Translations under genes and position numbers: made by a program
Assembly: GCA_942159475.1 (NCBI GenBank)
Contig: OW804094.1
Coordinates: 14,886,132-14,950,131, forward strand
Reading direction: 5' to 3'
Source: Sthenelais limicola
Taxonomy: Eukaryota > Annelida > Polychaeta > Phyllodocida > Sigalionidae
Length of the DNA stretch: 64,000 bases
Part shown: positions 550 to 62,200 of the stretch, piece after piece
Layout of the letters: each line of letters starts with the position of its first letter
Position numbering within the stretch: the stretch's first letter is position 1
The notes under the pieces: generated by a model
Seen by the model: only the letters and a program-made list of their open reading frames with translations
The model's database searches: none
Told to the model about the DNA's origin: nothing

Positions 550-3500
550 TAGTATTGTGGTCGATGAATCTGAGCCTATTCACTCAAAAGAGCCTAAAGC
601 CTTGAGCTCGGTCTTCTGTTGGGGAAGTGGGATCAACGCGCCCATAAAACTACCGTTACCTAGCAACGATGTGGAAATAACTCAGGCCTCCATTGGTCGA
701 ACCCAAAAAGCTGCAGTCACCAAAAATGGACGGCTTATCGTTTGGGAGGTAAATTATCACCCTAATCGCTTTCCTATATCAATACTTACCATACCATTTA
801 ATACCATTTATTATTTAAACCTTTTAAGGTAAATAAGACTCGATTCATTTCCTTTTAAAATGTTCTCTCTTCATTAAGATATCCAAACGGCAAACGGTTT
901 ATATCGAGGAACCTGTAAGAATACTAACTGAGCTTTTCCCTTTTTCATTTATTCTAACGCTTTTAATGAGAAGATGATTTCTTTTGCTAAATTGGAAGTA
1001 ATTTTACGGAACGTTGCCGAGCATTGTGTGTTGTGTTGCCTTTTGTGCCTGCTACGGAAAAGAGAAATGCTAACTATTGTAAAATATTAAATGTTTACTT
1101 AAAACACCATTTAAAAAAGTTGTTTCATGGCATCAATACGTGGATTTTGAATATATTGAGGTCCTGTGTTGTCCATTAAATCAATTAATAATTGGTAAAG
1201 TATGCAACTATTTCATCTTTTTTGACTATCTCTATATTTCGCCATATTCTCTTGTGTCAAAAATTACAATGTTTTACTTTAGAGAGAAAGGAAACTGTAC
1301 AAACTGAAACAAATGAAGTTTATATAGTATGAAATTTTGGATCCTATCTAGATCTTTAGAGTCATTTTGTTATACCTCATTGTGCATTCCCCAAAAATTT
1401 AACTTTCTAGCTAGCTCCTACCTGTATGGACGCTAGCTCATTAATGACTTTTCCCCTATTCTCATTGGTCGCGCTGCACCTGTCAATTAGGTTAGAGGGC
1501 TTGCCTAATGGTAATCCTCCATACTACAGTGTGCAACATAGTGAATTTGGAGATGAGAGACCGTCGGTCTCTGCCAAATTGTAACAGTGGAGACCGAAAA
1601 GATTTTACAGAGACCAAAAAAAAAGTCTGGTTCATAGATAGGGTTCCCGTGGTCCAGAGCAGTTTAAACATTTTATCACTTGGATATTTCATTGGAGACC
1701 GTCGGGCCCTTACAAATATCAATTTCAGAGACCGACGAAAATTCAATGGAGACCTGGGCGTCGGTCTCTGGGTTATGTTGCACACTGAGATTACTATTTT
1801 ACAGGTAATCGTGCACCGCCTAGCTAGTTACCTACCTAATAACACCTAGGTTATACCATCATAAATACTTCATCTGTACCAGGAATAAAGACCATCTTAC
1901 AACTTCTATACTTCGTTACCTTTTGTGTTACTTTCGTTGTAATAATTTAAATGGTATTTCTACCCGTTGAACACGACACACAGGCGCCAGTCATGGGTTC
2001 AGAAGGATCCATACTACCAGGATCTACAGAACCGCAGGGTCCAGCATTCATACCTCGCTACCTGGAGGGTCAGTCAGCGGTCACCATACAGTACGTCTCC
2101 TGTGGGGATCTCTTTACTGCCTGTCTGACTGGTCAGTGCCAATTGGTCTTTAATTTGATTTGAAAATACTTTACAATTTAATACATATAGGACTAATGGT
2201 TGACAAAAAGGTAGACATGCTTCTGGTTTCCAGGTCTTCCAGCTGTTACTGATAGGGGACAGTTGATCTAATCTAACACTAATAGAAGGTCAAATATAAC
2301 TAGCGTGTATAATACAGCACAGTACAGTGCCTTAGAGTACAGTACAAATAGATTAATGTTCACTATAGTCCTATGTACTTAGCACTTCACATAAATTCAT
2401 AATTTTTAATATAAAATAATTTGGGTTGCAGAGAAGTCTTCTGATGTAATGGTTTATCAATAAATGAACGGAGAGTAGATTTGACTTTTTAGATATACAG
2501 TCTCTATATAACGTATTAGCTCTTGCAAATCGTGATTTTTCTTAATTTTATTGAAAAGAAAAATGTCACAAAATCTACAAATTTGGAATTATCACATATT
2601 TGCTCTCTGTTACTACTAATAATGATAAGTGTGACTGTAATGATGATTGTAGGAATAGAACTTGTTTCCTCTTTAGGGACACCGTAACCACTATCATTAA
2701 TATTCATATCACTACCGCTACTATTTATTTTAATTTACATAGGAGGAGGAGCATATACATTCGGGCATTTATAAAAAAAACATATTCTTATCTTCCAGAC
2801 CGTGGGATCCTCATGACCTTTGGTAGCGGGGCTAATGGCTGCCTTGGTCATGGAAATTTCAATGATGTGTCCCAGGTATATTTCATTAGATTATTCATAA
2901 TATTCGTTAACATTTAAGTTAATTTTCAAATTCTCTATGTCTAGAAATCCTTCCCAGTGTGTACAGCTCATAACCAGGAAACTATGCCATTTTGAGAAAT
3001 TGAGAAATAACAGTATATACATGAAAATTCTACAACAAAATAATATTAACTCAAAGAAAAAACCAAACACGATCAAAGCTAGAAGAATAGCTTAACTAAA
3101 GAGTCCCTTCATGCTTTGATTATAATATGTACAGAGCAACCACCACTTCGGACAGATTTTATCATTTTCCAGGGTAAAAAAAATAATTTCATTGCTAAAT
3201 CTCACACTAAATTGCCTTTTTGTTGTAAAATAAATGAAAATTATTCCAGTGAAGAATATGAATATATAATGTAAAGGTTAGGATATGCCATTTTATATAA
3301 TGTTAAGATGATAATGAACGAGAAGCAGCGAGCCACCTTCAGTCAATGACAAAGGTGGTATTGTTCACCTGCTTAAAAAAATACTTTAAAAACAACAAGG
3401 AGGGCTTGAAAACCTCCTGTGTGAAGGAGAACCGCTCCCCCAATCCAATAAAACGTAACCAAACCAAAACCTATTTATTCCAGGCAAAAATCGTTGAAAC

Positions 3501-6500
3501 ATTACTGGGGTTTGAGGTTGTGGAGGTATCCTGTGGAGCCTCCCATGTGTTAGCTGTAACAAACGAACATGAAGTGTACGCCTGGGGTCGAGGAGACAGT
3601 GGGAGGCTTGGACTGGGAGACTGCGAAACCCACAACACACCGCAGCTAGTTCCCATTGCTGAGAACTTCCAGCCGTCGTCTGTACACTGTGGCATCGACT
3701 GCTCCATGATTCTTACAGAGGACAGTCGCCTCCTCTGCTGTGGCAGCAACAGGTGGGAACTGGCTCATTGCTTTGTTACATTTATCACGGAAGGAGAATA
3801 ATAGTGAGATATACATGTGGATAAGAGGAAATTCCTATAAGATACCACTACCAGAGAACCTAATAAGGCCAAAAAAAATAGGTGTGTTTCCCCTACCTAG
3901 AAAAACCTTACCCTACCTAAAAAATTGTTTACCATACCTGATTTTTTCCCCATCATATCTTACTTTTTTTGGATTTTTTGCCAAAAATGCTTATAGAAGC
4001 AGGAAAACGGGTTTTCCTAACCTGGAACTGTCCAAAGGCACATTTCCCATGTTCAAAACAACTATTGTTATGAAAAAGACATTTTTTTCAGTTCCTGGAA
4101 GGAGGTTTCCAAACAAAAAATAATAATAAAAAAAAAAAGTTACCACCCCCCCCCCCCCAACCTAGTTTTCAGCCAGATAAATCGGAAACACACCTATTTT
4201 TTTTTTGGCCTAAGCATTTCCTGATTTCTCATTTTTACTATATTAAATTGTTGGCATACCAAAATGTATGGTGTTGCAATGCTAAGGCTTCTTCTCTAAA
4301 TGTGATGTGTTATAGATAGATTAGTCACAAGGGGCCATCCACAAATGACGTCATGCTTTTTTTGGCCATTTTTGACCCCCCCTCCCCCCCATGTCACGTT
4401 TCGTCACACTGTGCCAGACCCCCCCCTTAAAACTGATAAAAAATGACGTCATGTTTGCAGCACCCCCCCCCCCAGCCCAACTCCCCCTTTTAAAAAAGGT
4501 TATCATTAATTAGGTATAACATCATAATTAAATGATCCACAACATTGAAATCTTTGTATTAAAAAAACCCTGAAGTCCCAGAATGTGAATAGGCTACTTT
4601 ACAAATTCATTTAGTACCACGGCAACTATGGTGACCTCAATCCTAGCTCAGAGTCAAGGCAGGCAGTTTTCCAGGGCCCTGATACTTTCACTATAGGTGT
4701 CAAATTTTGCCAACATATACCAGCAATGAATTTTGCTTTGTGTCCAACAAATAAGGCAAGATTATCAACCACTATGTTAAGGTTAGTTTTCTGCCTGCCA
4801 ATGGACGTGGGTCTAATGAGTTGCACATGTGCAGAGAGGTTTGGCAGTGGTATAATACCCAAACGCATTAAGCCTGATTTGCATATTGTGCACAGTTATG
4901 GAGGCTATAGTTTAGGATGTAGTAATGGAACATATCACATAAAAGGCTTTTACACAAGATCAAGTCTGTGTAGTCCCACAGGGGTCAGTTCCATGACCAC
5001 CTCTCTTCATAATATATATGGTCAGTTCTCACAAATCGGGTACACAGAGGGTATTTTTGGCTAAAAATTTAAATGCATTGAAACTACTTGCCATTTACAG
5101 ATATCATTATACATATAATGAAGGGTTCATAACAAAAATTGGGCACACTAATTTTAAAAACTGCATTTTATAACGTTGCCACCCCAATGCTTTTGGATAG
5201 AAATATTGTAGAGGTGATGAGGGTTATTTTTTAAATTTCAATATTTTTGTTTGTTATCGTATCATTAAGCTAATGTTTCAAGCTATAGAATAAGATCAAA
5301 ATTGATTTTATTTTGAATTTCTATTTCAAGGCACTTTATTTGAAAATCATCTTAACTCTTTGACACCCAAAGTTTAAGGGCATGGCCTTGTTCTAATCCT
5401 TGTCAAATATACTTGATTTCTCAAAATCAATATTTTGGTATTCTTGTAGCAAAAATACATTATTCTCATTATATCCAATTTCATTATCTCATCTGAAATT
5501 GTTCTTTTCCAATGTTTTATGTTGCCAGCCCATTAGTGCATCCGGGCCAACCCCAGCTTAAATCAGTCCAAAAATAACAGAAAAAATGTTAGGTTGAAAT
5601 TAAAAATTCTATGACATGAACATCTTATTAGAAGCTTTAAATTGACAAAGTTCCATTTGATGATCAATAATTGTGTAGACACATTTTTAAAATGAATGTC
5701 GTTAGGTTGGCAATGTTTAAACTTCCCCAACATGACCTTTTTTTAATGATTCAGATCTCATTGAAACAGTTTTTCTGATATGCAATTATTCAATGTTTGT
5801 ATTCAGAATAAAGTCGTTTGAGATTACATATCAGGAACAAAATCTCACTAGATAATTATTTTTGATCCCTAGCTGAACCCTTTAAAAGTGCATCGGGATG
5901 GCAACGTTAAAATTTCCCAAAAGAAAAAATGAATTAAAAGAAATTAGCAATATTTCCAAACACTATATCTTTAATGTATTTATAGCCAATAGATAGGAGC
6001 ATTATTTCAGACACATGTTATAATAATTTGATGTTTTGTACAATGCTGAGTAAACTCTATTTGACAAAATTATTTTTTCCTCTGCATAAAAGTGGGTTAT
6101 GTGGGTGGATTTCTGCCCATAGGGGTGGCCATTTTGTGTTTTAGCTATATAAAAGTATATGTCCCATGAAAGGTCTATCTAAGCTGCATCGATTAGTTTA
6201 AAATTTATTCATATATAATAAACTGGTTTCCATGAGGGGTTCAGAACCCTGAGTACATGGTTAATATCAATACTCTGAAGAACCTTCAAAGGTGAGTGAC
6301 AAAGTCCTTAGATATGTATAAGCAACTTGACCTGCCTACCCTTCACTTTAAAAGATTAAGAGGTGACGTGTACACGCTACTGGACTTGGTTGTAACAGGA
6401 CATAATGTCAACTGCCTCAAGAACGATCTTGAGGACATGGAAATATCGTCCTTGGCATTGGGACTGGTTGGGCAATGGGTGTGGTACCAGTCATTGTATT

Positions 6501-20424: not shown

Positions 20425-21605
20425 CCATATATATATATATTAAATATTAAATATATATATATTAAATATTAGTGAGCGTAAACGGCAAAACATCCAAATG
20501 GACACCAGTCACTAGCGGAGTTCCCCAAGGCTCGGTACTTGGACCCGTCTTATTCTGTCTATTTGTGAATGACTGTCCCAAGGTCACGGACTGCAGCGTA
20601 GAGATGTATGCTGACGACACCAAGCTTCACTCTATCATTGACAACACATCCAACATACAACAGGACCTCAACAACATCCAGGACTGGGCATACAAGATGC
20701 AGATGCGCTTCCATCCTGACAAATGTAAAGTGCTACACCTAGGTTACAACAACCCAAATCACAGCTACACCATGTTGAATGGGAAGGAAGAACAGCAAGA
20801 ATTGGAGACTACAACGGAAGAAAAAGATCTGGGGGTCACAGTAGATGATAGACTAACCTTTGCAACCCATGTACAGAACATTGTCCAGAAAGCTAACCGG
20901 GTACTAGGTGCCCTGCGGAGGACGTTCAACTTCATGGACCCAACCATGTTCCTACAACTCTACAAAAGTCTGGTGCGTCCCCACCTCGAATATGCATCCT
21001 GTGTATGGTCGCCAGCCTATAAATACCTCAGCGACATGATTGAGAACGTACAGCGCAGGGCCACCAAACTGGTACCACAACTGCGTGAACTCCCCTACGA
21101 GGAACGACTCCGCCGACTCAACCTTCCAACGCTTCTTTACCGTAGAAGACGGGCTGATCTTATCCAGGCATTTAAGATAATTAACAACATCGATCAGCTA
21201 AAACAAGACACGGACTGCAAGGTCTGCGAGTCTAGGCAGATGTTCGAGTTGTCCTATGCCAGGAATACTAGGGGCCACAACAAAAAAATTCAAGTCCAAC
21301 ATGCCGTTGGGCACCGCTCACGCTTCTTTGCGACAAGAGTGACACCTGCCTGGAACCAGCTAAGCCAGTTAGCCGTCAACTCCTCAACTGTACTACAGTT
21401 CAAAATAAATCTCAGCCGTTGCCCAACCGAAAAATCACTCCTATACATCCACTAAATTCTATACCGCCTAAAACTAAACTAATTAACCCGCGAAACCCAC
21501 CATGCGCACACACAAATTAACGTTTAGCGTCTCATTATCCTTAAGGGATATATATTGACGGATACAGGTGAGATTACAGGTGAGATATATATCCATATAT
21601 TATAA
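20425..21605 (+). mobile_element. 5'-truncated CR1-like LINE insertion with short tandem 3' end
   Basis: Extends from the AT-rich junction before the RT frame, through the frame ending at 21455, to about 21600. There the 3' end shows two copies of ACAGGTGAGAT in tandem. CR1-group elements typically end in short direct repeats rather than poly(A). Exact boundaries and the target duplication are obscured by flanking TA repeats. Confidence 0.6.
20472..21455 (+). CDS. Reverse transcriptase fragment of a 5'-truncated CR1-like LINE
   Basis: An uninterrupted 327-codon frame starts inside the RT domain. Motifs in order: GVPQGSVLGPVLFCLFVND (RT block 4), MYADDTKLHS (catalytic YADD), EEKDLGVTVDDRLTF, then the C-terminal region YKSLVRPHLEYASCVWSP, RRLNLPTLLYRRRRADLI and TRVTPAWNQL. 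This order is typical of CR1/L2-group non-LTR retrotransposons. The first codon is only where the frame opens; N-terminal RT blocks, endonuclease and ORF1 are missing, as in usual 5'-truncated insertions. The 5' junction abuts an AT microsatellite (20430-20471). The lack of stops implies a fairly recent insertion. Confidence 0.85.
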   Translation: MSVNGKTSKWTPVTSGVPQGSVLGPVLFCLFVNDCPKVTDCSVEMYADDTKLHSIIDNTSNIQQDLNNIQDWAYKMQMRFHPDKCKVLHLGYNNPNHSYTMLNGKEEQQELETTTEEKDLGVTVDDRLTFATHVQNIVQKANRVLGALRRTFNFMDPTMFLQLYKSLVRPHLEYASCVWSPAYKYLSDMIENVQRRATKLVPQLRELPYEERLRRLNLPTLLYRRRRADLIQAFKIINNIDQLKQDTDCKVCESRQMFELSYARNTRGHNKKIQVQHAVGHRSRFFATRVTPAWNQLSQLAVNSSTVLQFKINLSRCPTEKSLLYIH

Positions 21606-40545: not shown

Positions 40546-40890
40546 ATCTTTTTAAACAAAATAATAGCACTACAATAGATTGTATACAATGCATGGGTCT
40601 GGGCGTCAGAATATGCAGGTAATACTTTAGCCTACAGACCGGCAACTATAAAGTGAGTTAAACAATTATTAGTCTCCCATATTGATAAATTAAGAATTCT
40701 ATGCAACAATTATTTAAAATATGTATTTCGCTGACCCACATACGCATACACTAGGTCATTTTCTCGTGGAACTGATGAAGCCTCTTGCCATTGGAAGCAC
40801 GCCACTGAAATCGTGTCCAACTAACCAAAAACTTAGTAATATTCACAAGCACAAAAAGATGAATACTTTAAATGAACTACCCCAGAATAA

Positions 40891-40902
40891 TGAGAATTAT
40901 TC
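40891..40902 (+). repeat. 5' target-site duplication of the LINE
   Basis: TGAGAATTATTC, identical to 47688-47699. The preceding AA could extend the duplication to 14 bp but merges with the poly(A) tail at the 3' side. Confidence 0.9.
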
Positions 40903-41901
40903 GATAAAGATAGTACTCTGAAAGCGAACAGACGTGTGGTAGCTTAGGCTCCTCAACTAATCCTTTTTCTTTCAGATAAGCCAGGTTCCAGAAGCATCAT
41001 TTTTCGCCAAAGTGGAGAAAAAGTTAGAAGAAAAGTAGAGACGAAAAGAAAAATACCCAGGAAGCAAAAATAACGACAGAAAATTGGATAAGAAAAAGCT
41101 GAAGGATTACGCGCGAACATAACCGCCATTAATCCAGAAGCTCAGCGTTTATCGCCCACCTTGGATTAAGTGGATTAAGACAAAGTGACAGTTAAACGAA
41201 AAAAAAAGAGAAAGTTACTGGAATACGAATAAGAACCGAGAAATTCTGTGCAAGGAAAAAGTTTTTTGCCCCGCCAAAAACTTTATTTCTCAAGACAAAC
41301 GTGGAGATTAAATAATCCTCGACAACACGTGAGCAAGTGGATTAACGGAAAAGGATCGCAAAGCACAAGTAAAGGCTGGAAATATACGGTGTACATCAAA
41401 ACCGGTAAGAAAAAGAAGCGCAAAAATTCTGGATCTAACAGAAAAGTGGAAGTAAAGAATAAAACGGCATAAAAAAAAATAAAGAGAACCACGTGAGGAT
41501 TATCAGCTTATTCAGAACAGTTGGGATTAGCGGCCATATTGGTCGTCTTCCTCGCATCGAGAAAAGAGCGGGACGGGCTAAGTGAGGCTGCGGCCCAATA
41601 GCCACGACCCAAACGGCTAAAGACGGAACTCTTGGAGAAAAGAAGTGAATAAAAGTTAAGAAAACTGGAGAAGTACAAAAAACTTTATAAAATTTAAAAC
41701 ATTCGAACAAAAGTGACCCGAAAGTAAACTATTGTAACCAGAAATGGAACTAGTGGGATAAAAAACTGTAAAAGTCGAAAGCCATAAAGCGAGAAAAGTG
41801 ACGCCGGAAGTAACGGTGGCCATCTTGAATTTAGAGACAAGAGAAGTGAAAAACAAACTGTTGCAACGGAAACCAGTTCCGGTGTAAACACTTCCGGGGC
41901 C
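40903..41901 (+). promoter_or_regulatory. LINE 5' UTR, presumed internal promoter region
   Basis: Lysine-codon-like, A-rich sequence with only short frames (a 74-codon frame at 41248-41472 is rich in Lys and has no recognisable domain). A splice-acceptor-like tract CTTTTTCTTTCAG is at about 40966-40978. In L1-group elements this region holds the internal promoter; that role is inferred from position. Confidence 0.5.
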
Positions 41902-43581
41902 ATGAGTTTGGCTAACGTGGATCAGAAAGTACTAAATAACGAAGAAAATAAACAAAACCCAGACGAAAAAGTAAAGAGGAAAAGACCAGCGGAAGAATCC
42001 TCACCAACGATTCCAACTAAAAGAGCAAATAAAGCGGAAATGAAAACGGGAGCAGCAAAAGTTCCCCCGGCACCGACGGACCAGGGTCCTGATGGAAAGC
42101 CCAAACCTGATCCGAAGAAACAAAAAAAAGGAGGGGCAAATGGCACCCCGAAAAAACTAAAGAAGCTGGAAAAAAAGAACATAAAAAGGGTTAGACCGCT
42201 ATATAAGAGTAATGATGTTATGCAAATGGTACGTGAAATGCAGAAACACAACCAGGAAAGCTTCGACGAACTGTTTGACGCCTTAGGTGACTTAGAAGTC
42301 GTAAAGGACACAGTAAACGAAAATATCGTAGCGATAGAAAATGTGAATGCCGCCATAGATGTAATACATGAAGAAAATAAGAAAAGAGATATGGAGAAAG
42401 AGGAGATGAAACAAACCATCAAGCAACAGAATGAGGACATACTGATTCTGCAACAGAATGCGGCACAACCAAGAGATACAGATGACCTAGAGAGGAGAAA
42501 AATAGAGCAGCTGAAAGATCAAGATCTAGTGAGAGAAGAAATGGCAAAACTAGAGAATAATCTTTTGATTGTCGGAATCAAAGCAATGGAAGGAGAAACC
42601 CAGGCTGATAGACAAGAAGCAGCCAAAAATGTAATACATGAAGGTATGGGTCTGACTCATATAAAGATCAAGAGAACCTTCAGAGTGAATTCCAAGCCAG
42701 GATGTCCCTTGAAAATCGAGTTGAATAATCACGAAGAAGCTGAACTGATTCTTGATAATAAGGAGGAGCTAAAACAGTATGTATACGATGGAGTGGCAGG
42801 GCAAGTATATGTAAAAAAGGATGTTCCATTGTTCATGAGATTACGTAATGCCAAGGCGAAACAAATCGCTGACGCTGCACTACTTATCGGATACGACGAA
42901 GCCAGAGCAAGTAAAGGTAATGTCTTCATTGATAGATGGTATCGCTACGATGAACTGGCAGCAGTCCCTACCGAATTGTTACTATCGCAATTAACCAAGA
43001 AAGAAAACCATCATGCTCTAGTATTTTTTACGGAAGATAATCCACTTTCGAATCATTACAAATCGCCTTTCAACATCGAGCAGAAGCAGTTCCACAATGT
43101 AGAACAATTCCTTTTCTACAAGAAAGCAATAATCGGAGAGGATACTGATAAAATCCAGATGGCCCTCGCAACACAAAATCCGAAGAAGGCAAAGAGTTAT
43201 ATGGCGAATGTAACCAGGAATAGACAGAACTGGGTCCTCCATAGAAAAGAATTCTTACTGTCGGCCCTAAGAGCCAAAGTTCAGTACAATGAGTCGGTGA
43301 AACAATACCTACTATTGTCAGGAGACAAACATATTGGAGAAGCTGCCCCCAAAGATAAAGTTTGGGGAATAGGGATCCCCCTATCCGATCCTGACGTCCT
43401 AGACTCATCAAGATGGCCACCAAATGGTAACATGCTGGGAAAAGCATGGATGCAGATTAGAGATGAAATCAGGAGGAAAGAGCCTGAAAGTCGTGAGAGC
43501 AGTAGTAGTGACGAAGGAGAGGAAGAGGAGGATGACGACGAGGAGGAAGGAGAGGAGGAGATGGAAGAATCTCCACTTTAA
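41902..43581 (+). CDS. LINE ORF1 protein: coiled coil, RRM-like core, C-terminal NADAR domain
   Basis: 559 residues from an ATG in GGCCATGA context. Regions in order: a basic, Lys-rich N-terminus with nuclear-localisation-like runs (about 1-105); a charged coiled coil (about 105-215); an RRM-like segment starting NNLLIVGIKAMEG (about 215-300) and a small C-terminal module (about 300-360), as in L1-type ORF1 chaperones. Next is a NADAR (YbiA/DUF1768)-like domain (about 372-525) with FFTEDNPLSNHY, FHNVEQFLFYKKA, LRAKVQYNESVKQYLL, GEAAPKDKVWGIGIP and GNMLGKAWMQIRDEI, followed by an acidic Glu/Asp tail. NADAR proteins act on N-glycosidic or ADP-ribosyl substrates, including ADP-ribosylated guanine in DNA. 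The family's conserved Glu in VEQ, the Lys pair, WGIG and NxLGxxxMxxR positions appear intact, suggesting activity rather than decay. The assignment is by motif reading only. Confidence 0.85.
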   Translation: MSLANVDQKVLNNEENKQNPDEKVKRKRPAEESSPTIPTKRANKAEMKTGAAKVPPAPTDQGPDGKPKPDPKKQKKGGANGTPKKLKKLEKKNIKRVRPLYKSNDVMQMVREMQKHNQESFDELFDALGDLEVVKDTVNENIVAIENVNAAIDVIHEENKKRDMEKEEMKQTIKQQNEDILILQQNAAQPRDTDDLERRKIEQLKDQDLVREEMAKLENNLLIVGIKAMEGETQADRQEAAKNVIHEGMGLTHIKIKRTFRVNSKPGCPLKIELNNHEEAELILDNKEELKQYVYDGVAGQVYVKKDVPLFMRLRNAKAKQIADAALLIGYDEARASKGNVFIDRWYRYDELAAVPTELLLSQLTKKENHHALVFFTEDNPLSNHYKSPFNIEQKQFHNVEQFLFYKKAIIGEDTDKIQMALATQNPKKAKSYMANVTRNRQNWVLHRKEFLLSALRAKVQYNESVKQYLLLSGDKHIGEAAPKDKVWGIGIPLSDPDVLDSSRWPPNGNMLGKAWMQIRDEIRRKEPESRESSSSDEGEEEEDDDEEEGEEEMEESPL

Positions 43582-43638
43582 TCCCCTGGAAGACATTCGG
43601 AATTGTGATTTAACTTAGTTGAATTATAAAAATCCGTA

Positions 43639-46600
43639 ATGGAGACCCTAGGGGAAGAGAGAAGCCAGCTGGGTTTTATTTCACTTAATGTGAATGGCCT
43701 AGCAGGGAGCATTAAGAGAAAAGCAATTATGGATGAGCTTAAAACAAATAATAATATGATAATAGGGCTGCAAGAAACCCATTCTTCTAGTGAAATCGAA
43801 GCTATATGGAAAACACAGTGGCCGGGAGAAATGATAATGAATCATGGCACTAAAGCTTCTAGAGGAGTGATGTTATTAATACCTAAATGTTTAAAATCTA
43901 ATATAGCTGAACGAGGTCAAGATGATTCTGGTCGGTGGCAGTACGTAGTACTGGACCAGAACAATAGAAAAACTGGAATCTTCAACGTCTACTCACCAAC
44001 TAGTGAAAAGACAGAAGAACAGGAAGAAATTCTAAAGAAGATCAAAGAAAAAGTCCAGTCGTTACAAGTAGAAGACATCGTAATGATGGGAGACTTTAAT
44101 GCAGACTTGTCCTTCAGACCTGATAGCAAAGCTAGCAGCATATTAAATGATTTTATAAATGAACTGGACCTATGTGACATCATAAAGGTGAAAAGTAACA
44201 ACCAACCAGTAAAAACATGGTCAAGAAATGGTAGTGAGTCAAGGCTGGATTATGTTTTTATTTCCAGTAATATTGTGAATAGCATTGTCTCCTTCTCAGT
44301 AGATTCGCATGCCCAAACTGATCACAAAAAGATTAGCATAAATATATATCAAGAAATCGAAAAACGTGGTAAAGGCTTCTGGAAGCTCAATGTAAACTTG
44401 TTGCAGAATGATCATTTTGTTCACAATGTAGAGATGTTGGCAAAAGAAAACAAAGAGTTGTCACCCACTTTGAGATGGGAATTTTTCAAACTTAAAGTGA
44501 GAGAAGAGGCTATAAGAATTAGCTCAGATATTGCTAGAGAAAGAAGAAGAAAAAAAGAAATCGAAAATAGAAGATTAAAAATTTTGGACCAAAAAAAAAT
44601 AATGTCAGAGGAAGAAAAAGAAGAAAGAAAGAATATATTAAATGAGAAGAAAATAGCTGAGTTAAATGCAGCCCAGGGGGCCCTAATAAGATCTAGGGCC
44701 AGGTGGGCAATCGAGGGGGAAAAACCCACAAAATATTTCTGTGCCCTAGAGAAATACCAGGCAGAAAAAAAAATCATTAATCAATTGAAGGTAAATGGTG
44801 TTTTAAAAACTGGTAAAGAAGAAATATTGAAACAAGGTGAAAAATTCTATAAAGAATTATACACCGAGTTTGAGATAGACGAACAGATCGCAGAAACCTT
44901 TATGAAAGGAGAAAACATATATGAACTAGACGAAATAGATAACGATATTTTAATACGACCTTTTGAAGAAGAGGAAGTTAAAAAGATTATATTGTCTATG
45001 AAAAACAACAAGTCACCAGGGTGTGATGGTTTTACTGTCGAGTTTTTTAAGTTTTTCTGGTACGCGATATATCAAATGTTTATAAATATGATGCATTTCA
45101 ATCTAGCTCAGGGAAAAATATCTGAAAGTCAGTCAAGAGGAATAATAAGTGTCATACCCAAAAAAGATAAAAATTTAGAAGATCTGGGAAATTGGAGACC
45201 AATAACGTTACTCAACGTTGATTATAAGATTATATCTAAAGCTATCACATCAAGACTAAAAATGCATATTACAGATATGATAAAAGAAGATCAATTTGGT
45301 TTTATCCATGGAAGATACATAGGCACAGCAGTCAGAAAGATTGATGACACTATTTCTTACTTGGAAAAAAATCGACAGGAGGGACTAATAGTAGCTTTGG
45401 ACTTCTCCAAAGCGTACGATTCAGTCAGTTGGACCTTCTTAGAAAAAGTCTTAATCTCTCATAATATATGTGACACTTTCAGATCGTGGATAAAATGTTT
45501 ACTAGAAAACTCTAAAGCTGCCTTTTCGAACAATGGTCATATATCCAATTGGTTCGACATAAGAAGGGGAGTTAAACAGGGAGACCCAGTCTCATCTTAT
45601 CTGTTCACAATGATAGTAGAGAAGCTAGCAGAAAGCCTAAGAAATGATAACGAGATAGAAGGAATAAATATAGGAGGATATGAGAATAAAATAATACAGT
45701 TCGCAGACGACAGCACCCTCATGGTAAAGAATGAAATATCCCTAGTGAAATGCCTTAGAAAAATAGATGACTTCTTTTTAGCGACTGGTCTAAAACTTAA
45801 TGCTAAAAAATCAAAAGGTTTCAGAATTGGAAACTTTGCTCTATCTAATAGAAAGGTGTTAGAACTAAACTGGGAGAAAGAAATAAAAATTCTAGGGGTC
45901 ACCCTTATGTCGCCAAGAAGCGAAAAAAAACTATCTTTAATAAATACAGTTGATCTTGTGCAAAAAATCAAAAATGTAATAAATGCATGGAGGTACAGAT
46001 CATTGACGATCAAAGGTCGAATATTAGTCTCGAATGTTTTTGTATTACCATTGGTCCAACATACGTTATCGTGCGTTTATATAGATCCAAAAAAACAAAA
46101 AGAGATAGAAACTATTATCACCACCTTCATATGGAAAGGAGGATCTAATAAAATAAGTACTGACTTCTTAGCGCAGAACTGTCAGAATGGTGGCCTAAAT
46201 CTGAGATGCATAAAAGAAATAATTGAGACAAACAGATTAAAGTGGGTTCAAAGGATGCTAGAAAACAGTAATTCATCATGGTTTAAAATTCTTGAACATG
46301 ACCAGGGAAAATCAATTGAAGATATTTTCTTAATTAGAAATAAACCCAGTCATGCTTTGAACAAATTTTATGAGGAAGTCTTTGATATTTGGAACAAATA
46401 TTATTTCTCACAAAAACCAACTAGTGTGGATCAAATCAGAAAAGAAAGGCTATGGAGAAACAAATTAATTGTTGTTAAAAAAATCCCCATAGGATGGGAA
46501 AGAGGCGAAAATCTTGGAATTAAAGTAATTGGAGATATATTAAATGACAGAGGTGAACTAATGTCAGAAAAAGAATTCCGAAAGGAATACAGCACCAATA

Positions 46601-47424
46601 TATACTTGCCAAGAAATATCATAAAAAAAGCTGTGCCTATAGAGTGGTGGAATAAGCTTCGTAATAACATCCAAAACCCTGTTAAGGATGTAATAGAAAT
46701 AGAAATCAAAAATGTAAAGATTGATGTAAAAAACGCGAGTTCAAAAATGTTATATAATGCCCTGGTTGCTAAGAGAAAACCCAAATGGGAAAAGATATAT
46801 GAATGGCAAAAAATTCTAAATCTGGATGATGAAGAGTTTAATGCAATTGACTGGAAAAAAGTTTTCTATAACCCATATGCTGTTACCAAAGAATCAAGAA
46901 TCCATGCACTACAATACCGTGTTTTACACAGAACTATCACTTGCAATGTCAAACTAAAAAATATGGGAATAATAGAGAAGGAAAAATGTTCTTTCTGTAG
47001 TTATGACGACGACATAATACATTTCTTTGTCGAATGTAAGAAAACAAAAGCAATGTGGCAAGAAGTATTCCTTTTTATTGAATCAACAGGTTACCTGAAT
47101 AGAACTAATGGAGACAAAATGATTCTTAAAAAAAATGGAAGTAAAATGGATATAAATGCAAGCGATGTTATTCTTGGAATAAGAACAGATAATATTAATG
47201 CCAGAGTTATAGGTTGGATTATATTACAAATGAAAGCCATTATACAGAGGCAAAAACTATTCCATGAAGGTATGTTAACCTTTAAAATGATTATATCGGA
47301 GTTAGCAATTAAGAGTAAAATTATAATGTACCAGAACAGCACCCAAAATGTGGATAATGAAACTAAAGAAATATGGCTGAAGTTAAACGCGGATCTGATG
47401 TCCACCTGTGAGGATCCAAACTAG
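43639..47424 (+). CDS. LINE ORF2 protein: APE endonuclease and reverse transcriptase
   Basis: 1261 residues, intact. The N-terminal apurinic/apyrimidinic-type endonuclease shows FISLNVNGLAG, GLQETHSS, MMGDFNADLSF, SRLDYVFISS and AQTDHKKISI, covering the catalytic Asn, Glu, Asp and His positions. The reverse transcriptase shows SPGCDGFTVEFFKFFW, NWRPITLLNVDYKI, VALDFSKAYDSVSW, GVKQGDPVSSYLF and the catalytic FADD at about residue 688. The C-terminus carries a zinc-binding-like CSFC...HFFVEC motif typical of L1/Tx1 ORF2. The protein nicks target DNA and copies its RNA by target-primed reverse transcription. Its start is 57 bp after the ORF1 stop and in the same frame, with further in-frame stops in the spacer, so translation needs re-initiation or an internal entry. 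Confidence 0.95.
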   Translation: METLGEERSQLGFISLNVNGLAGSIKRKAIMDELKTNNNMIIGLQETHSSSEIEAIWKTQWPGEMIMNHGTKASRGVMLLIPKCLKSNIAERGQDDSGRWQYVVLDQNNRKTGIFNVYSPTSEKTEEQEEILKKIKEKVQSLQVEDIVMMGDFNADLSFRPDSKASSILNDFINELDLCDIIKVKSNNQPVKTWSRNGSESRLDYVFISSNIVNSIVSFSVDSHAQTDHKKISINIYQEIEKRGKGFWKLNVNLLQNDHFVHNVEMLAKENKELSPTLRWEFFKLKVREEAIRISSDIARERRRKKEIENRRLKILDQKKIMSEEEKEERKNILNEKKIAELNAAQGALIRSRARWAIEGEKPTKYFCALEKYQAEKKIINQLKVNGVLKTGKEEILKQGEKFYKELYTEFEIDEQIAETFMKGENIYELDEIDNDILIRPFEEEEVKKIILSMKNNKSPGCDGFTVEFFKFFWYAIYQMFINMMHFNLAQGKISESQSRGIISVIPKKDKNLEDLGNWRPITLLNVDYKIISKAITSRLKMHITDMIKEDQFGFIHGRYIGTAVRKIDDTISYLEKNRQEGLIVALDFSKAYDSVSWTFLEKVLISHNICDTFRSWIKCLLENSKAAFSNNGHISNWFDIRRGVKQGDPVSSYLFTMIVEKLAESLRNDNEIEGINIGGYENKIIQFADDSTLMVKNEISLVKCLRKIDDFFLATGLKLNAKKSKGFRIGNFALSNRKVLELNWEKEIKILGVTLMSPRSEKKLSLINTVDLVQKIKNVINAWRYRSLTIKGRILVSNVFVLPLVQHTLSCVYIDPKKQKEIETIITTFIWKGGSNKISTDFLAQNCQNGGLNLRCIKEIIETNRLKWVQRMLENSNSSWFKILEHDQGKSIEDIFLIRNKPSHALNKFYEEVFDIWNKYYFSQKPTSVDQIRKERLWRNKLIVVKKIPIGWERGENLGIKVIGDILNDRGELMSEKEFRKEYSTNIYLPRNIIKKAVPIEWWNKLRNNIQNPVKDVIEIEIKNVKIDVKNASSKMLYNALVAKRKPKWEKIYEWQKILNLDDEEFNAIDWKKVFYNPYAVTKESRIHALQYRVLHRTITCNVKLKNMGIIEKEKCSFCSYDDDIIHFFVECKKTKAMWQEVFLFIESTGYLNRTNGDKMILKKNGSKMDINASDVILGIRTDNINARVIGWIILQMKAIIQRQKLFHEGMLTFKMIISELAIKSKIIMYQNSTQNVDNETKEIWLKLNADLMSTCEDPN

Positions 47425-47687
47425 AATTGATGTATGAATCTGTTAATAATACAAAATGAAAATGTTCTTCTTTTAACACCTTTAATCGTTTATAACAATT
47501 GATAATATTAAGAGTCGCATGATGACAATGTATAATTATCAACCCAAAAGACCTGGGTCAAAGTTTCATTTTATTTTTATTTTATCAAGCAGGAAAGAGC
47601 TATGTAATACTTAATGTAAAAGCTCTAGGCGAAGGAGAAGTTTTGTTGACAGACTGAATAAACCATGTTTCAAAAAAAAAAAAAAAA

Positions 47688-47699
47688 TGAGAATTATTC
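47688..47699 (+). repeat. 3' target-site duplication of the LINE
   Basis: TGAGAATTATTC directly after the poly(A) tail, identical to 40891-40902. Confidence 0.9.
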
Positions 47700-49274: not shown

Positions 49275-49346
49275 GGGGATATAGCTCAGCGGTAGAGCGC
49301 TTGCTTCGCATGTAAGAGGCCCCGGGTTCAAATCCCGGTATCTCCA
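49275..49346 (+). tRNA. tRNA-Ala (anticodon CGC)
   Basis: A 72-nt cloverleaf without intron. The acceptor stem is GGGGATA/TATCTCC and the discriminator is A. The D arm is GCTCAGCGGTAGAGC. The anticodon arm CTTGC-TTCGCAT-GTAAG has a mismatched last pair and anticodon CGC. The T arm is CCGGG-TTCAAAT-CCCGG. A and B boxes are intact and a TTTTT terminator starts 5 nt after the gene (49351-49355), so it is probably a functional Pol III gene. It decodes GCG alanine codons. Confidence 0.93.
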
Positions 49347-49350
49347 CAGG

Positions 49351-56258: not shown

Positions 56259-59200
56259 TCACGTGCTTATAACCACATAACCAGATTTATTAAGCACCTT
56301 CCGCCCGCCGTCAGATGGCAGCAGTGAATGGGTTTCCCCCTCGTCGTCTCCCTCGCCACCACCAGGAGCGTCCATGTTGCTCTCGGAGTTATTTATAAAC
56401 CTGGAGGTGTCACAGTCACCTTGAACAGTGTTCAGGTGATCAGGGTGGATGTAGTTGACACTGTTGTGATTGGCGTCATTCTGTGGCGGTGGATATTGCC
56501 CATGAGCTATATCACTCATGGTCTTGTAACCTCCCACGGGAGCTGTGTCCGGGCCCCTCAATGTAGCAGTTTGGTTAGAGGTATATGGACTGTCTTTCTG
56601 CTCGTTAGAGTCACTTGAGACTGGTGGCAGGGTAATATAGCCATTATTACCCTGTCTTTGTTGTTTAGCTGGTGGCTTTCTGTTCATAGAGTCGGCTTCA
56701 GGAAGAGGTTGGAGCTTTTGTGAAGGGGGTAGAGTGATGTAAGGGTTGGTTTGGGGTTCAGAAGAAGTGAAAGGTTGGGGAGTTGAAGCACCAAGTGGAG
56801 GGGTCACACTTCCAGATGTAGCCCGGGAATACCCGGGATCAACTAGGTCATCCTCTGCTCCAGAACCACTTCCAGTTCCGGGTGGATACATTTGAGGCAT
56901 AGTGACATAGCCATTCATGTGATTTGGTGTCTCTGAATTGGTTCTATTGGTGGACACATTGGGTCCTGTAGCAAGATTTGGTGGGGTATTTCTGCCTGAA
57001 TCAGGCAAAGTTACATAACCAGCGTTTTTATGCAAAACAGAATTGGACGGCTCTCGTGGAAAGCTTTCTGTTGGTTTTTGTGCAAGATCTGAAGCTCTCA
57101 TACGACCCCCTTCAACAAGAAGAGAGGGGCTAATAGTCGGGGCAGGAATATAGCCTCCTGCTCTAGCAGCTGCTGTGTTTTCTGGCGTCTCACATCCGAG
57201 GACCGGTGTGATGTGTCTGTTAGAAGAAGATGGTGGATGTCTGTGTTCAGGTACTGTCACATACCCTGACTGGGGAGTAGAAGTTGCAGGGGGAGGAATA
57301 TAGTCTGTCTCACTCTGTTTGGCAGTGGGAGGAGGGCTCAAGACATACCCTGTGTCCTGCTTAGGCTGGGCACTAACCCCCAATATACCAGGGGGTGAAG
57401 TGATGTACCCTGTGTTGGGGTTAACAGGGGCACCTGCGGCACTGGGAAGTGGCACATAGCTGCCCTGAGGTTGCTGTAGGTTACTCTGCGGTGGCTTATT
57501 AATATTGTCACTAATGCTGGGACTGTTTCTGGCCATATCTGGCACTGTGATATAGCCAGTGTTGTGTTGGACACTGCCTGGGGCTTTGATATAGTCTGTG
57601 GCTGGGTTGGAGCCAGCAGGTAATGTGATATATCCATTATTGTGGCGGATATTGATATTATCAGGGGGTACAGTGATATAGTCTGGGTTGGGGTTCACTC
57701 CCGGGACTGTTATATAGTCTGGGTTAGAGTCTGTGTTGCCTGGTACTGTAATATAGCCAGGAACTTGGTTCTGTGTGCCTGGGGCAGTAATGTAACCTGG
57801 GGTGACAAAATTACCCTGATTTGTCGCCCCTGGTAGCAACCCCATGCCATTAGGCTGAACTGGTGGTCCAGAATGAAGGTCATTATAACTCCCACTAGCA
57901 TTCTGAGCTTTGACATAGTCAGATAAGGGAGTGGATGACAGGTCTGGAGGCAGGTTCCTAGAATTGTCCTGTTCCCCAGTGTAGCTCTTATCGCCCACCA
58001 TGACATAGCTGGGCATGGAGTTACTCCCCGGGGAATCAGGGTGTTGAGGATGGGCATAACCTACTGCCTTGTCTGGACTAACACCACCTAGCCCAGGAGA
58101 AGTTTGTGGTGACAAATTTCTTGGTGGGAGTTTAGGCCTTGGTAATGAAGCAGTCTTGCCAGCCTGGCTGGCATTAGATCCCCCACTGGCATGAGTAACT
58201 CTGGCATAACTGCTAACTGGCTCCCCACGGGGTTGGTAGCCATTGCCTACATCGTTGAGCTGCGTTGGGAAAACTTCATCGAGCTCCCCAGAACTAACTC
58301 TGTGCAGGGGGTTGGTACGGATGGGGTCTTGAGACAAACTTCCCCTCCCACTGTCAGCAGTGCTTTCCTGGCTGTTCTGCTTCGCAAGCTGCAAGAAAAC
58401 AAATGAGTTTATACATAGCCCTTGGCTCTTCATTGGAAATCCTAATTAAACATTGTCATGAAGACCCATTGGTAGACAACTTGAACCCTCTTTGGAAGTG
58501 TAAAATTGAGCTGTTCTGCCACACAAGCTGCATTTTCAATTAGTGAATGTACAGTAATTCCCAAACAAACTAAAACATATTGCTCAAAATGAAGCCACCA
58601 AAGGTAACTAAACAAAAATTAGAATATCATGACAGGTGATATATATCCCAAAATGAGTTCAAGGAGTCATATTTGAATATACATGCTAAAGAGTGAATAA
58701 GACAGTTTAGAAACAAAATACTCACACATAAAAATAAATGGGGGTAAAATGTTAAGCTTTGACAAAACGCATGCATAGTTTTCTATTTTTTAAGATTCTT
58801 GATTCAATCATTAAAGACATTATTGGAGAAGCCAAAAACCACTATGCAAGTATCCATTAGCAACAAGTTTCTATCAGGATAAGAGTGTTCATGGTACTTA
58901 AGTTAAGTAAAGATAGAATCAAGCAACATTTTTGTAAGAAAAAAGATAATCCATCTCGGTTCAAAACTAGTCGTATTGATTTTAGATTTAATATGAGAAG
59001 CATTGCAATAATAAATAACATGTAGATAAATAGTACTTAATTTTGAGAAATTACTATGTTAAAAAGGACTTCACAATCTTTTTCAACTTAGAAATAAGCA
59101 ATCAGTTTTTAATTTCGAAGAACAACATCACAATCTTGGTTTATACTTTGGAAAAACTCAGTGAATTTCATTGGGAAAGGTGGAGAAGAACTTACTCCTG

Positions 59201-62200
59201 TAGATATATGATTGAGGTAGTAATCTTCATCATCTACTACGAGTCCCTTCTGACTAGAGACACTGTTCTGGGCACTCTGCAAAAGTGAGTGAGGAGGTGA
59301 CAGTGAGTGAGTGAATGGGTGGTGGGTGAGTTAGAGGTGAAGGTAAGGTAATGTGTCCAGCAACAAAAAAGTTGTAAATCAAAAATATTCTAAAAGGGTA
59401 ATTTAAGTAGAGTATATTCCAGATACTGTCAATCAAATTACTTAAGGAGTGGATTCATATCAAAATTAGTTATTTTCTACACTAGTGAACTTGTGGCCTA
59501 ACCCTGTTCTGTGACCTATTCACCTAAAAAAACTGTATCACTTAAGATGCAAATTTTCAAAGATTTATCATGGCCCACGCCCTAAACTATGCTAGTTTCA
59601 TGATCGGGGGCAGCCAAGATTGCACGATGATGCATTTTATTTCTTGCAATACATTTTTTCTCTAATTAAGGGATTGAAATAATGATTCAGTATAAGGAGC
59701 GGTAGTTGATTAGCCAGCTGACATTGGTCATTTTCCAATTTATATTTGTTAATACTTTAATCTTGGGGAAGAGACCGATATAACTTTAATACTGGAGGGC
59801 AATCGTGGCGGGGTTACGCAGTATAACCTTCAGATCAACCAACTTCTCATCAGACAAACCACAAAAGGTTTTTTTACATACGGTATATCACAAATATTAT
59901 GTTCATGATATTGTGTTTTTTTAAAACCAAAATGTGTAGCTTATAAAGGGCACCATAAACTAATACCTAATACCTATTTTGTTATCAATTTTACAAAAAT
60001 AAATCTATAGGTATTTTTCAGGCTACTACATGTGGTTCCAGAAATTTTCTGGGGGAAGAAAATCAGAGACACATTACCTAAAAACGTTTCAAACCTTCAT
60101 CATTTTCGATTCCATACATAAACTATATACATGTATATCCTAATTATCAAAGAACTTATGTCAAACCACATTACACACATCTACATAGATTCTAGGATGC
60201 ATTTCTTTAACCCATGTTGAGAATAGCAAAGAATATTCCAGGGCTTACGTAGGATGTATGAGGCATTTCTATCCGGACACCAGTCTTGAACTTCTTGTAC
60301 ACCTTCATGCAGTACCTGTGAGTGGAATACATAAAACATTTAGACAAGAGATTTCAGGCAATGATTCTGTTAGGTTGCCTTAAGCTGGGAGTCCACTGGA
60401 CCACTTGTATGGGTGCTTAGGTTTCTATTGGTTTGCTTTGTCATAGGGCACTTTTCATTCACTCTTCATCCTCTTTTATTTTTAGCACGATACAAGCGCT
60501 GACCGATTTTACTAGTTTGATTTTACAATTACAAAATTAATAGCAATTGCATTGGTCCACTCTCAGTGGGCTATTGATGCACTTACTAAAAGGTGGAATG
60601 AATGTCCCATAGTTGCATTCAAACCACATACATAGCATATTAATTGATTCCATTGGACCGCGCTGGCTTCATTCTATGCTTGCTTCTTAAGAGCTCTAGA
60701 CAAAAAACAGAGCGAGCCAGGAGTCCACCTAAAGAGAGGTCCAGTGGATTATCGGCTTAAGTATTTTTTAAATCACCATATAGCAGTAAGTTTGGAATAT
60801 TTCAGCAAAAATCTTTATGATAAAATAAATTCTATGACATTGAATATCAAAACAAAACAAAAATGAACACAGTATAATCATTTAAGATTGATATCATTTC
60901 TATTTGAGCATGTTCTGAGCCTTTATGCTGATTTAGATAAGTAAAATATTGTTTCACATATATTTAAGAACATTTTAGCAAAATCTTTATATCAGATAAT
61001 TTAGAAATTGAGCAGCTGTAATGATAAGGACACATACTTCCAGGACTTGTAGAGCACGAAGACCAGGATGATCAGAAGCAATATTCCTCCAATAATCAGC
61101 CCTGCTGTTACGCCCGCTGTCAGCCCTGCAAAATTAAACAAATGATAAAATCAATGTGAAAATTAACGTGAATATTCATAAGTAAATGTATAAAGTTTCT
61201 TCCTCCATCCTTGATCGGGTACATGATCCTCTATCACACCACCATTCAACCCACATAGCATAACTCTTTAATACCAGCCACTCGCTAATAAAATGATATC
61301 ATTAATTGTGTCCTAGTGATAGCAATCATGAAAACAATGCAAATACTTACAAGTTCCTATAGTTCTGGCACACATGGTATCACTGGACGAGAGAGAAGCA
61401 CCAGCGGCTGTAAGACTCCTTACAGACACGCAGTAGTTGGTATAGGAGGAGAGCCCAGTCAGTGTGAATTTGGTAAGGGTCTCTGGGATGGTCATCTGAA
61501 GGCTGTTACCATCTTGGCAGGATGACTCAGCAGACTTGCAGTAAGAGATGAGGTAGCCATAGATGTAGCCTCTGTGGGTATGGCATGAGGGAGGGTTCCA
61601 TTGTAGGATCAGTTCTCCGCTATCTCCGGGGGTCAATATACGGTCAAGCCAGGAGGGTGCTGGCGAGGCTGAAAAGTAGAATGAAAAGTGTTTTTGTTAT
61701 TTTTTTATATTCAAAGTTTGTACTTTAGATTTTTAGATTGTTAACAAATTAGTGGAGCCAGGAGATGGGTTCTGGAGACTAACCACCGAAAACATGTCAT
61801 TTCATGATTAGTGTTTATTTAAATGGGAAGGTATTGGAATTAATCCATCCACATTCATCCATATTTCTTGTGGAAATTGTCTGGGAAGACTAACGATTTG
61901 ATATGAACAACTCTTGGGTTTGAAACCAGAGCTTCAATCTATTGGTTTTAAATCCCATAAGAGACATTACAAAAATTTGATATGACTTGTTAAGGCCGTA
62001 AAACAACCAAACAAACTCCGCAAATCCATTAAAACTCACTTTTTGCCAGCTCATAAGTGCAGTCGCTCCACACCATGCCACTACTCAGAGAGTCCACCTC
62101 TCTGGACACAGCAAACAAGTAGCTGTCGTGGTCCTCACTCAGCGTCGTTATGGTGAAGTTATTCTCATCTGCTCCCAGTTCCCGCCACTGCAGCTCTCCC

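Follow-up and report, generated by a model that had tools for sequence, protein, structure and literature searches.

A YbiA-type NADAR domain at the C-terminus of the ORF1 protein of an L1/Tx1-type LINE from the annelid Sthenelais limicola

NADAR domains hydrolyse guanine-linked ADP-ribose (guanine-ADPr) on DNA (PMC11543638, PMC11125620) and are described as alone among hydrolase families in having been found to undo guanosine-ADPr on RNA (PMC11833690); the NADARs tested were inactive on thymidine- (PMC11125620), phosphate- (PMC11833690) and uracil-linked ADPr (PMC13036486). Vertebrates are reported to have none (PMC11543638), and the physiological role of animal NADARs has been called unclear (PMC11125620). 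According to a single passage of PMC12477816, ORF1 of several Tx1 families of the oyster Crassostrea gigas appears to hold a YbiA-family NADAR, called there divergent from the copies of Ectocarpus. The Ectocarpus retrotransposon likewise carries a YbiA-family NADAR, but it is an LTR element with the domain in Pol; this NADAR is said to find almost only bacterial matches (PMC12477816) and may represent a separate acquisition. The LINE presented here resembles the oyster Tx1 elements in carrying a YbiA-family NADAR in ORF1, as far as the published description of those elements goes. The fusion itself, of which an earlier note on this DNA could not say whether it had been reported, is thus already published, while the evidence on selection, residues, clade and copies given below, and what appears to be a rebuilt pocket, are not in the passages of PMC12477816 cited here. 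A search of open-licence PubMed Central (titles and abstracts, part of the hits) found no second report of a NADAR in a LINE.

The window (the whole stretch of DNA analysed, 64,000 nucleotides of contig OW804094.1) contains one full-length LINE bounded by a target-site duplication, with the following features:

40889..40902, unstranded: target-site duplication, 5' copy, 14-bp AATGAGAATTATTC, exact match
40903..47685, + strand: full-length LINE, 6783 bp including the 3' poly(A) tract, bounded by the target-site duplication
40903..41901, + strand: 5' UTR, 999 bp
41902..43581, + strand: ORF1, 559 aa, open reading frame
42541..42999, + strand: RRM/CTD-like nucleic-acid-binding core, ORF1p residues about 214-366 (family core profile; dN/dS 0.045)
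43033..43473, + strand: NADAR domain, ORF1 residues 378-524 (Pfam, NCBIfam, residue mapping, dN/dS 0.070)
43474..43578, + strand: acidic C-terminal tail of ORF1p (from the sequence)
43639..47424, + strand: ORF2, 1261 aa, with endonuclease, reverse transcriptase and C-terminal zf-RVT (profile matches; endonuclease and reverse transcriptase motif strings present)
47425..47685, + strand: 3' UTR, 261 bp, with the poly(A) tract at its end
47686..47699, unstranded: target-site duplication, 3' copy, exact match to the 5' copy

The 14-bp repeat occurs on the + strand of the window in these two copies only (at 40889 and 47686), and ORF1 and ORF2 are separated by a 57-bp spacer. The AP-type endonuclease, the reverse transcriptase, the C-terminal zinc motif, the poly(A) tract and the target-site duplication identify the element as an L1/Tx1-type LINE, the name Tx1 being borrowed from the C. 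gigas report and not taken from a reverse transcriptase tree. The best match of ORF2 in the PDB is human LINE-1 ORF2p (3.4e-75), and the ORF1 core is likewise related to the L1 ORF1p of human and mouse LINE-1, which is not known to carry a NADAR. Sister copies of the window LINE are up to 99.75% identical to it over 3579 bp and, since such similarity points to recent movement, the element is, judged from its sequence, both full-length and recently active.

Outside the LINE, the window holds (i) a tRNA-Ala (CGC) gene (49275-49347, + strand) about 1.6 kb downstream of the element, (ii) a reverse transcriptase fragment of 329 aa from another retroelement (20466-21455, + strand), (iii) an exon with RCC1 repeats that probably belongs to a host gene (3307-3801, + strand), (iv) a 724-aa open frame (56259-58433, - strand) with repeats such as GYITVPG and without a Pfam match, in which 31 Tyr are accompanied by only four Y-x-x-P, and (v) beside that frame a fibronectin III exon (61313-61696, - strand), which is also matched by an interferon-receptor model. 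The last two may belong to the tail of a host gene that resembles cytokine receptors.

The earlier note, made from the letters alone, had proposed that a NADAR-like domain related to bacterial YbiA is fused to the ORF1 protein of a LINE, and had quoted five motifs in the NADAR order, all of which are found in the ORF1 translation. Profile searches bear the proposal out. Pfam NADAR (PF08719) matches ORF1 at residues 378-524 with an E-value of 3.7e-25 and 89.5 bits (cut-off 35.1), over profile positions 9-163 of 163, and NCBIfam TIGR02464 matches with 95.6 bits (cut-off 73.7). In the PDB, the single sequence finds the NADAR 8bau as its nearest solved chain (6.6e-12) and E. coli YbiA (2b3w) at 0.09, and with the family profile these values become 1e-24 and 1.5e-12, respectively, the latter agreeing with the proposed relation to bacterial YbiA. 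A chance resemblance was considered and rejected, as a profile built from 15 stand-alone NADARs scored ORF1 at 132 bits, against 6.6 bits for the best of 500 ORF1 shuffles; the reversed ORF1 was absent among the best five rows of this control. The Pfam match recurs in all 11 proteins examined (the window copy and ten database relatives). By profile, therefore, the C-terminus of ORF1 is a true NADAR, lying in frame within an intact LINE.

The model TIGR02464 is named riboflavin biosynthesis intermediates N-glycosidase, and ORF1p scores above its cut-off, so automatic annotation may label such LINE proteins as riboflavin enzymes. A NADAR protein of Pectobacterium phage CBB (L009), for its part, is annotated as GTP cyclohydrolase.

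The remainder of ORF1p had been described in the earlier note as a normal coiled coil and an RRM-like core. The core is supported through the family: searched on its own, the window ORF1 has no L1 ORF1p among its PDB matches, whereas a profile of the core without the NADAR (7 sequences) has L1 ORF1p entries as its four best matches (E 0.0011-0.0064; 2ykp at 0.0011). For the coiled coil, the support comes through the relatives, as by a rough measure of how hydrophobic residues recur a period of 3.5 was strongest in 4/4 relatives (narrowly in L028), while the window copy gave 4.5 as its strongest period, so that the description suits this copy poorly.

The genome assembly (1,130,627,326 bases, 1.13 Gb, in 161 contigs) holds at least 150 NADAR matches (150 scored among 5858 first-look candidates). 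Among the 150 listed, 11 are identical over 193 aa and spread over six contigs; 127 are stop-free within the match and 23 carry a stop, which in 15 of them is a single TAG. In the two copies read (L043, G000:C4:112899700-112902900, and L044, G000:C1:156889400-156892600), this TAG is the natural end of ORF1, and in the subfamily that they represent the frame then runs on into ORF2 without a further stop; some of the 15 single-TAG matches belong to frames that stay open for as many as 1860 aa. In another copy, L042, a TAA stands between ORF1 and an ORF2 that shares its frame. Readthrough or reinitiation may lead from ORF1 to ORF2 in the TAG subfamily, where the context of the TAG is not known as a readthrough signal.

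Twenty loci (L023-L042) picked by their NADAR all have an ORF2 match; several diverged copies among them have both ORFs open, and one, L027, has an interruption in ORF1 upstream of the NADAR. Since these loci had been chosen by the domain, the fair test is a search with the ORF1 core alone, which gave 111 matches in the genome. At least 79 of these (68 of the best 72) have a NADAR downstream among the NADAR matches listed. Five of the other 32 were read (L045, L050-L053), and in each the NADAR lies directly downstream, in L052 and L053 in two frames that were read as separate pieces. The domain thus adjoins 84 of the 84 core matches examined out of 111, and no core without a NADAR was seen among those 84. 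The possibility raised in the earlier note, that the domain is an oddity of this one copy with its catalytic residues lost in relatives, is rejected by the at least 150 genome matches, by the retained residues, the glutamates included (see below), and by the 84 core matches.

Ten other proteins in the database, several of them incomplete, agree with the window copy in the arrangement of those parts that they contain. A bacterial NADAR was used as query to look for a host NADAR gene (at least 150 matches, scored among 4726 candidates); of the four loci obtained (L046-L049), the three that were read are all LINE ORF1 with ORF2, and no host gene was found among them. A deep subfamily is represented by L047 (G000:C7, NADAR at 114729079-114729594), with an open ORF1 frame of 475 aa and a NADAR without the G-R pair discussed below. 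Viral contigs gave one distant match (L001, in a 240-kb contig), and no relative when an alignment was the query; genome contigs searched with the window domain gave two Lachnospiraceae NADARs only. Plasmid and phage hits amounted to 54 and 574 records, respectively, of which 11 were fetched.

The closest solved relative by sequence is the stand-alone NADAR of Phytophthora nicotianae. We take 8bau to be this protein, because a shift of its numbering by two brings its residues (E, K, K, G, R, V, Y, D, W, R, E, D and W) exactly onto the published contact positions (PMC11543638). Its residues E43, K50, E125, D130 and W133 all have counterparts in the window copy (E401, K408, E480, D485 and W488, respectively). 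The residues were tabulated for 26 LINE rows, 16 from the genome including the window and ten from the database, one of which falls short of the last three sites (L003, L046, L048 and L050-L053 were left out of the counts). Five positions are invariant in all rows that reach them: E43, K75 and W89 (26/26), and E125 and W133 (25/25). The K50 position is always basic (R in 17, K in 9). At the D130 position 15 of 25 rows keep D, eight have N and two have S; R93 is kept in 16/26.

The greatest departure concerns the pair G78-R79, which in the P. nicotianae structure contacts adenine (G78, through the backbone) and the pyrophosphate (R79) (PMC11543638). Both residues are present in the P. nicotianae protein and in all 15 stand-alone NADARs compared, a count that may not hold for all NADARs, as 13 of these rows had been collected for their resemblance to the domain in the window; both are absent in 25 of the 26 LINE rows, only P0003 keeping G-R. 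The window copy has M-A here, so the ADP contacts of the P. nicotianae NADAR are not reproduced. We read the LINE branch as having held the catalytic and ribose half of the site and rebuilt the ADP half and, owing to this altered loop, the LINE NADARs may take a different adduct from that of the stand-alone proteins or may bind ADP-ribose by other contacts.

Glutamate at the E125 position, rather than Asp or His, places the LINE domains in the YbiA subfamily (PMC11543638, PMC11125620). The DarT1-associated NADAR antitoxins share with them the fold family, the catalytic glutamate and the basic residue, but in the BC4488 type Asp takes the place of the YbiA-type Glu found in the LINE copies (E480), and assignment to the DarT1 type was rejected on this account. 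K431, considered as a specificity mark of that type, was dropped, being common to 14/15 stand-alone NADARs. As regards the frequent arginine at the K50 position, the corresponding K95R variant of the E. coli C7 NADAR keeps guanine-ADPr hydrolysis in vitro and loses its antitoxin effect in cells (PMC11543638).

Selection was estimated with six pairs sharing no sequence, drawn from the window ORF1 and those of 19 loci, all 20 exceeding 450 aa in length; the interrupted L027 was left out, and L025, L028, L031, L032, L035, L040, L041 and L042 are not in the six pairs. For the NADAR, dN/dS is 0.070 (26 synonymous changes in 589 sites, 7 nonsynonymous in 2255 sites; one-sided P against neutrality 1.5e-12), which shows strong purifying selection. 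The values elsewhere in ORF1 are 0.045 for the RRM/CTD core, 0.166 for the N-terminal part with the coil and 0.068 for the tail; in these close pairs the constraint on the NADAR (0.070 vs 0.045) is thus about equal to that on the RNA-binding core and not greater. At larger distances the order changes. Among ten chosen subfamily representatives, shared identity is 55% in the NADAR, 46% in the RRM/CTD part and 32% in the N-terminal part, and the window copy is 34-40% identical to the ten database proteins in the NADAR and 13-25% in the core. At database distance the NADAR is therefore, by alignment, the best conserved part of ORF1p, and the selection acting on it in related elements suggests that the LINE needs it.

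These data bear on whether the domain is still an enzyme. Catalysis may have been lost or become irrelevant, leaving the fold as an additional module for binding RNA, ADP-ribose or protein, and the loss of G78-R79 in 25/26 rows, the residues other than D at the D130 position in 10/25 and the change of K50 to R in 17/26 would fit such a module. We nevertheless rate it as rather unlikely, since E43, E125, W89 and W133 are invariant wherever present, position 50 is always basic, and the retention of both catalytic glutamates, at a dN/dS of 0.070, is not what would be expected for mere binding.

In a 37-row tree (without P0010 and YbiA; L003 was kept out of all trees), a branch supported at 100/98 sets 22 LINE rows apart from the others, and all 23 LINE rows are set apart when P0003 is included, with the lower support of 94/89. 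A 26-row tree left P0003 unplaced and did not reject a single LINE clade (p 0.499), and a 25-row tree without YbiA has 11 LINE rows on one side (82/88). The simplest reading of these trees is a single acquisition of the NADAR by the LINE lineage, although P0003 may have gained its domain separately. Retrotransposons do capture sequence, and it could be supposed that one ORF1 caught a host or bacterial gene that serves no function; nothing beyond this general habit favours such a passenger. It is contradicted by the dN/dS of the domain and by its presence beside all 84 core matches examined of 111, and the common branch of the 22 LINE rows also stands against it, so that we give it practically no likelihood.

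From the retained residues we infer that the NADAR of ORF1p is a working N-glycosidase/ADP-ribosyl hydrolase. Regarding its role, our proposal is a tentative one, possible though short of probable. By binding the RNA of its own element, ORF1p would keep the enzyme on that RNA and, during target-primed reverse transcription, on the cDNA; there the NADAR would strip bases, guanine being the likeliest, of adducts of the ADP-ribose type, which would otherwise stop the reverse transcriptase or mark the ribonucleoprotein, and template and cDNA would in this way be cleaned of base adducts. The source of the adducts would probably be a host nucleic-acid ADP-ribosyltransferase. An example is known in clams, as guanine-N2 ADP-ribosylation of DNA was described in six edible species and the guanine-N2-specific enzyme, CARP-1, was cloned (PMC11209040). 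Since the NADARs tested leave thymidine-, phosphate- and uracil-linked ADPr, the proposal requires that the adduct sit on guanine or be of a new kind. The release of ADP-ribose from guanine, to which the earlier note had pointed, is chemistry of the NADAR family that the LINE branch, with an ADP-contact loop unlike that of the 15 stand-alone NADARs, may or may not share. The loss of G78-R79, the N or S at the D130 position in some rows (8 and 2 of 25) and the prevailing arginine at position 50 count against the proposal.

The same altered loop would admit a smaller ligand, and the domain could instead be an active N-glycosidase on small molecules or RNA ends within the ribonucleoprotein (soluble ADP-ribose derivatives, by-products of RNA repair or NAD-type caps), which we consider unlikely, though a serious candidate. 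Several published observations lean this way. RNA processing was suggested as the role in the Ectocarpus and C. gigas elements (PMC12477816); the NADARs found within RNA-virus polyproteins, whose carriers include bivalve and annelid picornaviruses, were proposed to act on soluble ADPr derivatives (PMC9503650); YbiA, as recounted in PMC11543638, cleaves riboflavin intermediates; and the nematode trans-splicing factor SNA-3 needs its NADAR residues (PMC9303266). The fusion to a nucleic-acid-binding ORF1 core in each copy read argues, on the other hand, for a target that is itself bound to nucleic acid. A third role would concern host proteins: the NADAR might remove or read ADP-ribose on them, e.g. 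what PARPs deposit where the element integrates, and thereby help target-primed integration or the escape from restriction by PARP-family proteins. ZAP belongs to that family. Its restriction of human L1 (PMC4441479) is in keeping with such a role, but the activity of NADARs on nucleic acids was shown for guanine bases only (PMC11125620, PMC11833690), and we regard action on host proteins as quite improbable.

The removal of base adducts from the element's own RNA and cDNA may also be put in a wider and more doubtful form, in which a single intake of a NADAR made ORF1p an on-board eraser of ADP-ribosylated bases in RNA and cDNA, a counter-defence against guanine ADP-ribosylation by the host, and the rebuilt loop would mark a new NADAR subfamily with a substrate of its own. 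If the domain is active, this retrotransposon carries its own nucleic-acid de-ADP-ribosylase, which would point to base ADP-ribosylation as a means by which animals act against mobile elements. CARP-1 and similar writers would then gain a possible natural target, and animal NADARs a testable physiological role. The many diverged copies in the S. limicola genome, several with both ORFs open, provide natural variants.
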